A stretch of 45,160 bases of DNA from Gammaproteobacteria bacterium (lineage in GTDB: Bacteria; Pseudomonadota; Gammaproteobacteria; SZUA-229): positions 1 through 45,160 of the forward strand of contig JAPHSS010000009.1 of assembly GCA_026195255.1 (NCBI GenBank), in the 5' to 3' direction. How positions within the stretch are numbered: the stretch's first letter is position 1; every line of letters starts with the position of its first letter. Of this stretch, positions 18,267-23,986 are shown one piece after another. The notes beneath the pieces were generated by a model that saw only the letters and a list, made by a program, of their open reading frames with translations, did not search any database and was not told where the DNA came from. Position numbers and translations under genes: made by a program.

Positions 18267-18701
18267 ATGAAGAAACTAAAACTATTTACAATTGCAGCGG
18301 CATTAACCATCGCTTCTACTACAGCAAGTGCGTGGTGGGGCCCGTTCGGTAACAATGGTTATAATAATGGTTATAATAATTATAATAATAATTATAACGG
18401 TTATAACGATGGCTACGGACGTGGCTTCGGCGACATGATGGGTGATGGTAATTTTGGTTTTAATATGAGTGGCAGTGGTCGAGGTAGTGGTCAGGGTTAC
18501 GGTAGCGGTTATAACGATTATAACGGGCGGAATAATTTCAACCATTATAACAGGTATAACGGATATAATGGTTATGCACCTTATGGTTATGGCTATGGTC
18601 CTGCGCCTTATGGTTATGGTCCGGCACCTTATGGTTACGCGCCAGCGCCTTATGGCTATGCTCCTGCCCCCGTAGCACCAGCGGCACCAGCTGCGCCTTA
18701 G
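18267..18701 (+). CDS. Sulfur-globule-envelope-like secreted Gly/Asn/Tyr-rich protein 1
   Basis: The 144-residue product has a clear Sec signal peptide ([21 protein letters not shown], cut after residue 22) and a cysteine-free low-complexity mature part starting WWGPFG. It has three zones: Asn/Tyr/Gly repeats ([14 protein letters not shown], residues 29-42), a Gly/Ser-rich middle, and C-terminal [15 protein letters not shown] repeats ending in an Ala/Pro tail. This composition and the Trp-rich mature start resemble the CV1/CV2 sulfur globule proteins (SgpA/SgpB) of Allochromatium vinosum, which coat periplasmic sulfur. GAGGA precedes the ATG. A strong terminator follows at once, so it is a single-gene unit set between uvrA and yajR. 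Low-complexity proteins can converge, so homology is likely but not proven. Confidence 0.65.
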
Positions 18702-20361: not shown

Positions 20362-20808
20362 ATGGCAAGAGGCGTAAATAAAGTAATTCTGGTGGGTACC
20401 TGTGGTAAAGACCCTGAAACCCGTTATATGCCTTCCGGCGGCGCAGTAACATCAATTAGTATTGCTACTAATGAAAGCTGGAAAGATAAAAAAACCGGTG
20501 AAAAACAAGAGCGTACGGAGTGGCACAATATTACCTTTTTTAATCGTCTTGGTGAAATCGCCGGAGAATATTTAAAAAAAGGTCAGCAGGTATATATTGA
20601 AGGCAGCCTACGTACTGAAAAGTGGCAGGATAAAAGTGGTAACGATCGTTACACTACGAAAATTATTGCCAATGAAATGCAAATGTTAGGTGGTCGTGCA
20701 GGTGGTGGAGATTTCACACCGCAACAGCAGTCTCAATCTCAGCCTGCTAATGAGCCCGCACCGATGGCACCAGTTGATGATAGTTTTGATGATGATATTC
20801 CGTTTTAG
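20362..20808 (+). CDS. ssb: Single-stranded DNA-binding protein
   Basis: The 148-residue product has the SSB OB fold ([20 protein letters not shown] at the start, [22 protein letters not shown] mid-protein), a Gln/Pro-rich linker and the acidic tail DDDIPF that binds partner proteins of replication and repair. It coats ssDNA as a tetramer. It lies 65 bases after yajR and is followed by two terminators. uvrA is nearby on the other strand, as in E. coli where ssb and uvrA are divergent neighbours. Confidence 0.98.
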
Positions 20809-20814
20809 CAAACA

Positions 20815-20893
20815 CCTAAAGAAAATGTAAAGATTCTTTAGGTTTTTCTAACTGTAAAATATTTTAAAGCCCTGTTTCAACAGGGCTTTTTTT
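20815..20893 (+). terminator. Two tandem rho-independent terminators after ssb
   Basis: First: CCTAAAGAA (20815-20823) / TTCTTTAGG (20834-20842) then TTTTT. Second: AAAGCCCTG (20866-20874) / CAGGGCTTT (20881-20889) then more T to 20893. The second has the better stem. Together they isolate the following DsrC-like gene from ssb transcription. Confidence 0.9.
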
Positions 20894-21183: not shown

Positions 21184-21921
21184 ATGAATAATCTTGAAAT
21201 AGAGGGAAATATCATAGAGTTAAGAGCAGATGGTCGATTGCAGAATTCTGCAGACTGGACGCCAGAACTCGCGTTAGAGTTGGCAAGTAATGAAGGCCTG
21301 ACATTGACAGATGAGCACTGGGATGTGATTAATACAATGCGAGATTATTACAATGACTTTAATACCTCGCCTATTTTAAAACTATTGCGTCGTGAATTGT
21401 CTAAAGAGTATGGTGTAGAGCGGGCAACAGAAGGCGCTTTAATCGCTCTATTTCCAGGTGGGGTGCAACATCAGGGAAGTCGGATTGCGGGGATTCCCCT
21501 TGCCTATCTTGATGCCGAGTTAGACGAGGCTTCACGTATCAAACCTGTACAACCAGGTAAGCACTCCACTGGTCATTTTAATGACGTATTTGACTTTAAT
21601 GGTAAATCCATCACCGTGTATACATCGGGAAACCTGGTCAATCTGGAAGACTGGAATGAAGAGATGGCGGGTGTGTTAGCTGAGAAAGAAGGCATTCAGC
21701 TGACAGATGAACACTGGGTGGTTATTAACTTTCTGCGCAAGTTCTACTTCCAGTACGGCGTGGCACCGATGGTGAAAATTCTTATTAAGCATATGACGGA
21801 TGAGTTGGGTGCAACCATTGTAAATAAAGAAAGAATGTATGAGTTATTTCCTGGTGGGCCGGCTAAGCAAGGCTCACGTATTGCCGGTTTACCATTCCCA
21901 CAGGGCTGTATTGACGATTAG
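21184..21921 (+). CDS. Tandem DsrC/TusE-like protein with a single cysteine
   Basis: The 245-residue protein contains two consecutive DsrC/TusE domains. Domain 1 (about residues 4-105) has DWTPELALELASNEGL, LTDEHWDVIN and FPGGVQHQGSRIAG; domain 2 (about 133-245) has DWNEEMAGVLAEKEGI, LTDEHWVVINFLRKFY and FPGGPAKQGSRIAGLPFPQGC. DsrC carries two redox cysteines on its C-terminal arm; TusE keeps only the last. Here both CysB positions are Ser (99 and 231), domain 1 lacks the terminal Cys, and only Cys242 remains in the whole protein, followed by IDD. Single-domain homologues are sulfur carriers for Dsr sulfite reductase or TusBCD-MnmA. A sulfur-trafficking, scaffold or RspA-like regulatory role is possible. 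It is a single-gene unit between terminators. Confidence 0.85.
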   Translation: MNNLEIEGNIIELRADGRLQNSADWTPELALELASNEGLTLTDEHWDVINTMRDYYNDFNTSPILKLLRRELSKEYGVERATEGALIALFPGGVQHQGSRIAGIPLAYLDAELDEASRIKPVQPGKHSTGHFNDVFDFNGKSITVYTSGNLVNLEDWNEEMAGVLAEKEGIQLTDEHWVVINFLRKFYFQYGVAPMVKILIKHMTDELGATIVNKERMYELFPGGPAKQGSRIAGLPFPQGCIDD

Positions 21922-22156: not shown

Positions 22157-23986
22157 ATGTGCGGAATTGTAGGAGCAGTAGCAGAGCGTAATGTGACACC
22201 TATTTTATTAGAGGGTTTAAGGCGTCTTGAATACAGGGGATACGATTCAGCGGGTATTGCAGTTATAAACGAAGCGAGTCGCCTGGATCGGGTGCGTCGC
22301 GTCGGTAAAGTAGAAAACTTATCTGAATCACTAAAAGAACACCCATTAAAAGGTTTTTTAGGTATTGCGCATACCCGTTGGGCGACACATGGTGAGCCAT
22401 CCGAGCCAAATGCTCATCCGCATATTTGTAATAATTCAGTTGCAGTCGTACATAATGGCATTATTGAAAACCATGGTGAGTTGCGCGAGCAGCAAAAAGC
22501 GAGTGGATATACCTTTACCTCAGGAACCGATACTGAAGTGGTGGTGCATCAGATTGAGCTTTATAAAAAAACTGGTGACGATTTATTGCAAGCAGTAAAA
22601 AAAGCCACCCAGGATTTTGAAGGTGCTTATGCATTAGGTGTAATTTCAGTTGATGAACCAGGGCGTTTGATAACTGCTCGCAGTGGCAGCCCACTAGTTA
22701 TAGGTATAGGTTTTGGTGAATACTTTATCGCTTCTGATGTTGCGGCTCTGTTACCGGTTACGCAACGTTTTATATTTTTAGAAGAAGGTGATATTGCTGA
22801 TATCACAAAAGATAGCCTGGTTATTTATGATAAAAATGACCAACAGGTTAAACGAGATATCAGTACATCTGAATTAAGTGTTGATGCGGTTAGCCGCGGT
22901 GAATTTCGTCATTACATGATGAAAGAAATTCACGAACAACCGATTGTTTTAGGTGAGGTGTTAGAGGGCAGAATTTATGATGGTAAAGTTTTAGATTCAG
23001 CCTTTGGTGCCGAAGCCGGGCAAGTTTTTGATAAAGTAAAACGTGTACAGATTATTGCCTGTGGAACATCATTTCATGCGGGCATGGTGGCGCGTTACTG
23101 GTTAGAGTCACTGGCGGGTATACCCTGTAATGTAGAAGTTGCATCAGAGTTTCGTTACAGAAATCCGGTTGTATCGGATGACACCCTGATTGTCACTATT
23201 TCCCAGTCTGGGGAAACCGCGGATACGCTTGCAGCGTTACGTAACCTTAAGGAAAAATCCGAGTACTCACTGTCTATTTGTAATGTGCCAGAAAGCTCCC
23301 TGGTACGTGAATCAAAATTAGTATTAATGACACGAGCTGGCCCGGAAATAGGCGTGGCATCAACCAAGGCATTTACAACCCAGTTAGTGTGTTTAATGTT
23401 AATGACAATTGCTTTAGGAAAACGTCACGGTTTAGCTGAAGAAAAAGAAAAACAATTAATTGAACACTTAGTTGGTCTGCCTTCTATTATTGAAAGTGTG
23501 CTTGAGAATAACCATATCGAAGACTGGGCCGATGAATTTAAAGACACATTAAATTCTATTTTTCTGGGTCGTGGTGTGCAGTATCCAATCGCAATGGAAG
23601 GCGCGTTAAAGTTAAAAGAAATTTCCTACATACATGCCGAAGCCTATGCGGCAGGTGAGTTGAAACATGGGCCGCTGGCTCTGATTGATCCGCAAATGCC
23701 GATAATTGCAATCGCGCCTAAAGATGGCATGCAAGATAAATTAAAGTCTAATTTAATGGAAGTGCTGGCTCGTAACGGCGAAGTTTATTTATTTGCTGAT
23801 GAAAGACTTGATATGAGTGATATGGGGGATATGTGCCATGTAATGACGATTCCCGCAGTTGAACCAGAAGTGGCCCCCATTTTGTACGCTATACCTATGC
23901 AGTTGTTTTCATATTTTGTTGCGGTGAGAAAAGGTACTGACGTAGATCAACCAAGAAACCTGGCTAAATCGGTTACAGTTGAATAA
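22157..23986 (+). CDS. glmS: Glutamine-fructose-6-phosphate aminotransferase (isomerizing)
   Basis: GlmS makes glucosamine-6-phosphate from fructose-6-phosphate and glutamine, the first step to UDP-GlcNAc for peptidoglycan and LPS. The 609-residue protein has the class II amidotransferase start MCGIVGAV (Cys2 becomes the nucleophile), YRGYDSAGIAV, and HTRWATHGEP, then two SIS domains (IACGTSFHAG, TISQSGETADTLAAL) and the C-terminal PRNLAKSVTVE. It stands alone after a 151-base gap; in many bacteria it follows glmU, which is not seen here. Confidence 0.98.
   Translation: MCGIVGAVAERNVTPILLEGLRRLEYRGYDSAGIAVINEASRLDRVRRVGKVENLSESLKEHPLKGFLGIAHTRWATHGEPSEPNAHPHICNNSVAVVHNGIIENHGELREQQKASGYTFTSGTDTEVVVHQIELYKKTGDDLLQAVKKATQDFEGAYALGVISVDEPGRLITARSGSPLVIGIGFGEYFIASDVAALLPVTQRFIFLEEGDIADITKDSLVIYDKNDQQVKRDISTSELSVDAVSRGEFRHYMMKEIHEQPIVLGEVLEGRIYDGKVLDSAFGAEAGQVFDKVKRVQIIACGTSFHAGMVARYWLESLAGIPCNVEVASEFRYRNPVVSDDTLIVTISQSGETADTLAALRNLKEKSEYSLSICNVPESSLVRESKLVLMTRAGPEIGVASTKAFTTQLVCLMLMTIALGKRHGLAEEKEKQLIEHLVGLPSIIESVLENNHIEDWADEFKDTLNSIFLGRGVQYPIAMEGALKLKEISYIHAEAYAAGELKHGPLALIDPQMPIIAIAPKDGMQDKLKSNLMEVLARNGEVYLFADERLDMSDMGDMCHVMTIPAVEPEVAPILYAIPMQLFSYFVAVRKGTDVDQPRNLAKSVTVE

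Follow-up and report, generated by a model that had tools for sequence, protein, structure and literature searches.

Bacteria with a reverse Dsr pathway harbor many DsrC-like genes besides the one DsrC that is understood. A gene apparently encoding two DsrC-like domains in a single polypeptide raises the question of whether such a chain is genuine and, if so, whether it carries sulfur and where to. The gene lies in a gammaproteobacterial contig, referred to here as the window, i.e., the whole stretch of 45,160 nucleotides that was analyzed. The chemistry of two cysteines, CysA and CysB, serves DsrC in the DsrAB route, where it acts together with DsrAB and DsrMK.

According to PMC3397948, DsrC accepts sulfur solely on CysA, with DsrE-Cys78 of DsrEFH as the donor, CysB is dispensable for this transfer, and one or two DsrC molecules are proposed per DsrE2F2H2; family members from organisms without DsrAB are said there to have almost always Ala, Ser or Thr at the CysB position. 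Multiple family members are on record as well: the accessible text mentions four additional family genes for A. vinosum (PMC11267869), three dsrC/tusE genes, with no word on their domain architecture, in Thiohalobacter thiocyanaticus Hrh1 (PMC6504805), and four DsrC-family proteins detected in the Riftia symbiont (PMC7787665). The Solemya symbiont possesses extra homologues lacking the two conserved cysteines (PMC4287430), and single-cysteine phage proteins have been treated as TusE-like (PMC8190135). Queries of the open-access literature, several of which returned mostly unrelated results (e.g., papers on DSRCT tumours), gave no two-domain DsrC, and PDB searches gave single-domain relatives and no solved two-domain structure. 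A tandem form with this residue pattern was likewise not known to the first-pass annotation of the window, and no characterized family of the kind was found in that literature or in the PDB.

The gene and its two domains

The features relevant to the argument are the following:

20866..20889, + strand: terminator-like hairpin 5' of the fused gene, from a consensus scan
21184..21921, + strand: gene of the two-domain DsrC/TusE-like protein; ATG start, 245 aa plus stop; PF04358 twice, TIGR03342 match
21199..21498, + strand: N-terminal DsrC domain, without arm cysteine; PF04358, 96.0 bits, positions 2-101 of 107, genome-wide search
21478..21480, + strand: Ser99, CysB position of domain 1, from the window sequence
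21499..21582, + strand: linker, residues 106-133; its conserved first part (Leu109, Asp110, Glu112) occupies the place of the first arm
21595..21912, + strand: C-terminal DsrC domain with arm; PF04358, 132.3 bits, positions 2-107 of 107, genome-wide search
21874..21876, + strand: Ser231, CysB position of domain 2, from the window sequence
21907..21909, + strand: Cys242, CysA equivalent and sole cysteine of the window protein, from the window sequence
21910..21918, + strand: Ile-Asp-Asp extension past Cys242, then stop, from the window sequence

The protein belongs to the TusE/DsrC/DsvC superfamily by profile scores above the curated cut-offs: PF04358 (Pfam DsrC) matched two stretches of the 245-residue chain with 224.9 bits per protein (cut-off 24.9), and TIGR03342 scored 213.9 bits (cut-off 53.5). 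PF04358 was also matched by all 50 fused family members considered below. The reading of two DsrC domains in one chain, made initially from the letters alone, is borne out by the two PF04358 stretches; its residue calls (Ser at both CysB positions, 99 and 231; no terminal cysteine in domain 1; Cys242 alone, followed by Ile-Asp-Asp) proved exact, and the residue at the CysA distance in domain 1 (position 110) is Asp.

The hairpin at 20866..20889 and the 295-base gap separating it from the start codon suggest a separate transcript for the fused gene; the consensus scan returned three terminator-like sites versus 1.6 expected by chance, which by itself is no functional evidence. The flanking genes, which we take from their translations rather than from a family search to be SSB-like (20362-20808) and glmS-like (22157-23986), lie on either side of it.

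Distribution of the fused family

Among 58 genomes (the source genome and its relatives), the two-domain protein occurs in each of the five genus genomes and in five further members of the family (G006, G008, G013, G018 and G025); a second fused copy is present in G003, G006 and G018 and, cut by a contig end, in G025. The search across the order, covering 54 genomes, recovered exactly these ten, the raw tally of 38/54 including single-domain matches. The scan of genome_contigs, made with an alignment of 13 sequences as the query and two peptide patterns, which divergent fusions could escape, yielded 65 loci. Two-domain proteins are encoded at 49 of them (L061-L109), which handles and record titles assign to 45 genomes. 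At the remaining 16 loci (L110-L125), a single DsrC domain was matched; L110 and L117 also have long N-terminal parts to which the model used gave no match. The fused gene of L106 is interrupted by a contig end, and one genome carries two complete two-domain genes in tandem (L075:10001-10744 and L075:11071-11808, both +; re-encountered as L185), with 54% and 51% identity to the window protein.

By record title, the 49 loci come from Gammaproteobacteria or its subgroups (among the named ones Chromatiales, Thiohalobacter, Thiogranum, Ectothiorhodospiraceae, a Methylococcales bin and a Lysobacteraceae bin); L098 and L100 are titled Proteobacteria without further specification, and L085 is a Sulfuricellaceae. 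The fused design recurs in dozens of related bacteria, most of them sulfur oxidizers. Thiohalobacter thiocyanaticus Hrh1 (L086) is a named strain with the fused gene, and L082 is a single-contig chromosome bearing it. In a sample of 274 genomes of the class, the fusion was found in 14, from 10 families.

This survey, advised by the first-pass annotation, also settles the outcome that would have undone its reading, namely two adjacent dsrC genes joined through a frameshift or an assembly error. Such a join could draw on the broken dsrC-like gene, in two overlapping pieces, on contig C14 of the source genome and on a viral contig (L128) with two separate adjoining dsrC genes. It is refuted by the fused frame, unbroken in 5/5 genus genomes and at 49 further loci in 45 genomes, strain Hrh1 and the single-contig chromosome included, and by a dN/dS of about 0.1 (see below), so its probability is practically negligible; the same unbroken relatives rule out chance.

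A phage or plasmid origin was considered and rejected. The viral scan gave 14 loci, of which L128 holds two separate single-domain genes and the other 13 are matches of at most 351 bases, roughly one domain. In protein searches, 18 plasmid and 8 phage records were hit, all with less than 60% identity, and the rows examined (the best 8 of 18 and 8 of 8, respectively) cover 291 to 447 bases each, i.e., single-domain length; 14 plasmid and 2 phage records score 80% query coverage because both halves match one place. No PADLOC family matched, which dismisses a defence role. In the viral contig (L128:3849-4483, +), the first of the two separate adjoining dsrC-like genes encodes the terminal cysteine only, and the second encodes both.

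Conserved residues

Residues were counted in 50 aligned full-length fused proteins (alignment A2), a cysteine tabulation that had been recommended at the outset and that gave the single Cys in 50/50. Both Cys242 and Ile243 are kept in every protein, position 244 is Asp in 48 and Glu in 2, and 36 of the 50 have no cysteine besides Cys242. The CysB position is occupied in domain 2 by Ser (46), Ala (2), Thr (1) or Cys (1) and in domain 1 by Ser (27), Thr (18), Leu (3), Val (1) or Ile (1); the CysA equivalent of domain 1 is Asp in 47, Ala in 2 and a gap in 1. The tail past the cysteine is 2 residues long in 13 proteins, 3 in 30, 4 in 2, 5 in 4, and 6 in 1. The linker is conserved at its beginning (Leu109 in 45/50, Asp110 in 47/50, Glu112 in 47/50) and far less so in the remainder. 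Within the arm (residues 236-244), the mean majority frequency amounts to 95% versus 61% in the N-domain and 69% in the C-domain. Since these traits are constant in 50/50 or nearly so, the missing first arm and the Cys-Ile-Asp/Glu tip count, as judged from the alignment, as fixed family features and not as quirks of a single genome.

Origin and selection

A maximum-likelihood tree was built from 111 domain sequences (113 columns), in which 28 of the 50 fused proteins were split in two and accompanied by 55 single-domain rows from the source genome, its relatives, E. coli (TusE), A. vinosum (DsrC), A. fulgidus (DsrC) and the viral contig. All 28 N-domains formed one clade (100/97) and all 28 C-domains another (99/77 as drawn); the two clades were joined at 100/97, with all 55 single-domain rows outside, and in all 200 bootstrap trees (100%) a single change accounted for each domain label. 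Such sister clades are most simply explained by one old tandem duplication followed by fusion. The tree has few columns, some of its single-domain rows sit on long branches, and more closely related single-domain proteins may lie outside the sample.

Both domains are under purifying selection: the comparison of the window gene with L061 (92.9% nucleotide identity) gave dN/dS of about 0.13 for the N-domain and about 0.10 for the C-domain.

Predicted structure

The AlphaFold2 model based on alignment A2 (pLDDT 90.2, pTM 0.85) consists of two DsrC-like repeats with an identical order of elements; a structure prediction had been proposed at the outset. A second model, based on alignment A3 and headed by a protein 43% identical (L102), reached a pLDDT of 86.8 and a pTM of 0.77, with a low-confidence linker. 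The two pTM values hint at a defined mutual arrangement of the domains. Foldseek retrieved eight chains of the DsrC family with E values of 1e-5 or lower; DsrC-family chains aligned over the N-domain of the predicted model with Z of 12.1 to 17.1, and a viral fold library gave no match at E 0.001. The model accordingly shows the DsrC fold, and CysA sits on the C-terminal arm of domain 2 (50/50) and is absent from domain 1. The built-in pseudo-dimer with one sulfur-bearing arm, put forward in the initial description, is supported as far as the tandem and the one arm are concerned (family scores, single Cys in 50/50, confident model); the pseudo-dimer itself is only suggested, by the pTM.

Genomic context

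In the class sample of 274 genomes, DsrA was found in 12 of the 14 fusion-bearing genomes versus 80 of the 260 others (Fisher p 5.8e-5, indicative only because of kinship); it was counted in 92 genomes at E 1e-60, with 87 above the curated cut-off. The two carriers without it (G276 and G283) have the fusion on contigs of 3.9 kb and 8.9 kb, in G276 as the sole DsrC match of the genome, and may be exceptions through mis-binning or missing contigs. DsrA exceeds the cut-off in 34 of the 45 named carrier genomes and fails to do so in the other 11, which include the single-contig chromosome L082 with only a partial DsrA match of 252.8 bits. The co-occurrence with dsrAB that had been envisaged is therefore real at the level of genomes and fails at the locus: the fused gene lies on contig C56, outside the dsr cluster, with dsrA, dsrE and the two-Cys dsrC on contig C47.

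DsrE/TusD exceeded the cut-off in the same 12 of the 14 class-sample carriers, but DsrE is also present in 6/6 comparison genomes (G011, G047, G050, G051, G055 and G100) and hence is no marker of carriers. For Hrh1 (G100), PMC6504805 reports the absence of dsrEFH and proposes two dsrC/tusE genes as DsrEFH substitutes. A DsrE/TusD match of 166.1 bits, above the cut-off, was found in that genome (contig C2:34149-34526), roughly 1.3 kb beyond the match to DsrA, so the reported absence looks like an annotation gap.

These matches bear on the idea that the fused protein stands in for TusE, feeding MnmA for tRNA 2-thiouridine where DsrEFH is present and a separate TusBCD is absent. The single cysteine and the replaced CysB, as in E. 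coli TusE, would fit, as would the source genome with one DsrE/TusD only, its sole TIGR03012 match being the DsrE of the dsr cluster. Nevertheless, the window protein misses the cut-off of the TusE equivalog PRK11508 (182.5 vs 191 bits), three class-sample carriers (G004, G220 and G330) have a second DsrE/TusD above the cut-off, and the fusion is absent from 80 of the 92 DsrA genomes, which renders this function improbable.

The source genome contains 11 DsrC-like genes, counted from 13 matches; it and its relatives possess a two-Cys DsrC plus another single-domain paralogue with a cysteine near the end. Fusion-bearing DsrA genomes have a median of 5.5 DsrC paralogues (n=12) versus 4.0 in the others (n=80; Mann-Whitney p 0.053), and an excess is not claimed. 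Among the paralogues, the C14 gene (L060, C14:7678-7991) is apparently broken, with two overlapping profile pieces in different frames. Another, on contig C39 (L056:4851-5489, -), encodes a 213-aa DsrC-like protein that ends in KGEH, has no arm cysteine, and bears, N-terminal to the DsrC domain, about 100 residues that the model used does not cover. Ten single-domain paralogues of the family (L148-L157) combine a cysteine at the CysB position and a second one with a C-terminal extension of the NDxSFGSxH type (IDPSFGSAH in L149).

The neighborhood of the fused gene was surveyed in 51 loci (gene clusters within 10 kb), with a simple gene caller recovering the fused gene in 45. No neighbor is widespread, the commonest non-self cluster occurring in 6/51 loci, and a co-directional neighbor within 100 nt was found upstream in 4 of 43 scored loci and downstream in 6 of 39, which speaks against a common operon partner. 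The company of sulfur globule proteins, another association thought of earlier, did not materialize: a sulfur-globule-like gene is near the fused one in only 3/51 loci. In the window itself, a 144-aa protein with a signal-peptide-like start (18267-18701, +) scores 29.8 bits against the sulphur globule family PF17228 (cut-off 26.7).

The lone position of the gene, as regulators may have, could speak for a DNA-binding or sensing protein reading the persulfide state of Cys242 and controlling sulfur genes. PMC7787665 cites a putative function of DsrC in regulating transcription, and residues ~25-108 weakly resemble Fur/PerR-type chains (Z 3.5 to 5.2). However, such Z values are commonplace by the tool's own note, and no adjoining target gene is conserved in the 51 loci. 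The PC4 DNA-binding family, rejected as an identity of the protein, was matched in 5/50 members and lies below the cut-off in the sole member with a known score (L097, 22.3 vs 25). The initial suggestion of a regulator thus gained no support here, no DNA-binding family exceeding its cut-off and no neighbor being widely conserved, and is highly doubtful.

Proposed function

The reading that we tentatively prefer, giving it somewhat less than even confidence, is a TusE-type persulfide carrier composed of an armed C-domain and an unarmed docking N-domain. Cys242 on the arm of the C-domain would accept persulfide from a donor of the DsrE/TusD type (in the source genome, DsrEFH) and pass it on to a client. 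With CysB lost, the CysA-CysB bridge formed by true DsrC beside DsrAB would not be expected, so that the protein would serve a side branch. Two DsrC sites have been proposed for the DsrEFH hexamer, and the armless N-domain may be a docking half, perhaps seated in the second of them. The replacement of CysB mainly by Ser favors the carrier, being the change reported in PMC3397948 for family members from organisms without DsrAB. Also in its favor are the two DsrC domains, the invariant Cys242 on a strongly conserved arm, DsrA and DsrE/TusD in 12 of the 14 class-sample carriers, the lone DsrE in the dsr cluster of the source genome, the low dN/dS of both domains, and the two AlphaFold2 models. 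Against it, the two-Cys DsrC and the end-Cys paralogue already present in the source genome and its relatives leave it doubtful that a fused carrier is needed. Furthermore, DsrA above the cut-off is absent in 11/45 named carriers, DsrE is not specific to carriers (6/6 comparison genomes), the extension past the cysteine is unlike DsrC and TusE, whose Cys is penultimate, and no neighbor gene indicates a donor or a client in the 51 loci.

A more specific version, with the fusion as a class of its own, is distinctly unlikely: a covalent pseudo-dimer would occupy both DsrC sites of DsrE2F2H2 in reverse-Dsr sulfur oxidizers, take up one sulfur at a time with its one live arm, and divert it past DsrAB to a dedicated client. 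If true, it would mean that a pathway depicted as linear conceals a branch.

Alternatively, the protein could be a competitor or brake, which binds DsrEFH or DsrAB instead of true DsrC and either stores sulfur on Cys242 or obstructs the site, thereby metering the flow into the DsrAB route. In favor of a brake, CysB is lost while the fold and a large share of the DsrC sequence are retained, the N-domain keeps its fold though devoid of an arm cysteine, and the gene occurs mainly in genomes with DsrA. Yet conservation peaks at the arm tip, beyond the needs of a mere blocker, and we consider this role unlikely.

The fused family is easily spotted by its two domains and one tip ending in Gly-Cys-Ile-Asp/Glu, and it is present in 10 families of the class sample and in the named strain Hrh1. 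It offers a clean handle on the job of the extra carriers and on the branching of sulfur flow before DsrAB.

Comparison with known family members

The fused protein resembles DsrC (1yx3, 1sau, 2v4j) in both halves: the N-domain aligns to 1sau with Z 17.1 and to 1yx3 with Z 16.9, and the C-domain scores 106 bits to 1yx3 and retains CysA. In contrast to DsrC, it has two domains per chain and is encoded outside the dsr cluster (C56 vs C47). Where DsrC proper has CysB, 11 residues before CysA, the window protein has Ser231, and only 1/50 members has Cys; where CysA of DsrC proper is penultimate, 2 to 6 residues follow the cysteine in 50/50 members (3 in the window protein vs 1).

With E. coli TusE, the sulfur carrier for tRNA 2-thiouridine that is supplied by TusBCD and supports MnmA, it shares the one arm cysteine and the replaced CysB, the pattern of CysA only with Ala, Ser or Thr at the CysB position being found in the window protein (Ser231) and in 49/50 members. 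It differs from TusE in having two domains and the extension past the cysteine; besides the missed equivalog cut-off, E. coli TusE lies outside the fused clade in the tree.

The single-domain DsrC-like paralogues of sulfur oxidizers, such as those ending in GCS or NCND...FGSVH and the additional genes of A. vinosum and the Solemya symbiont, are likewise extra family members encoded outside the dsr cluster, and some of them extend past the last cysteine; unlike the fused proteins, the 55 sampled rows fall outside the fused clade (100/97). Overall, the fused protein is a member of the superfamily for which the definitions of DsrC and TusE each fail on at least one tested feature, and it is a real and apparently undescribed branch of an established family of sulfur carriers.
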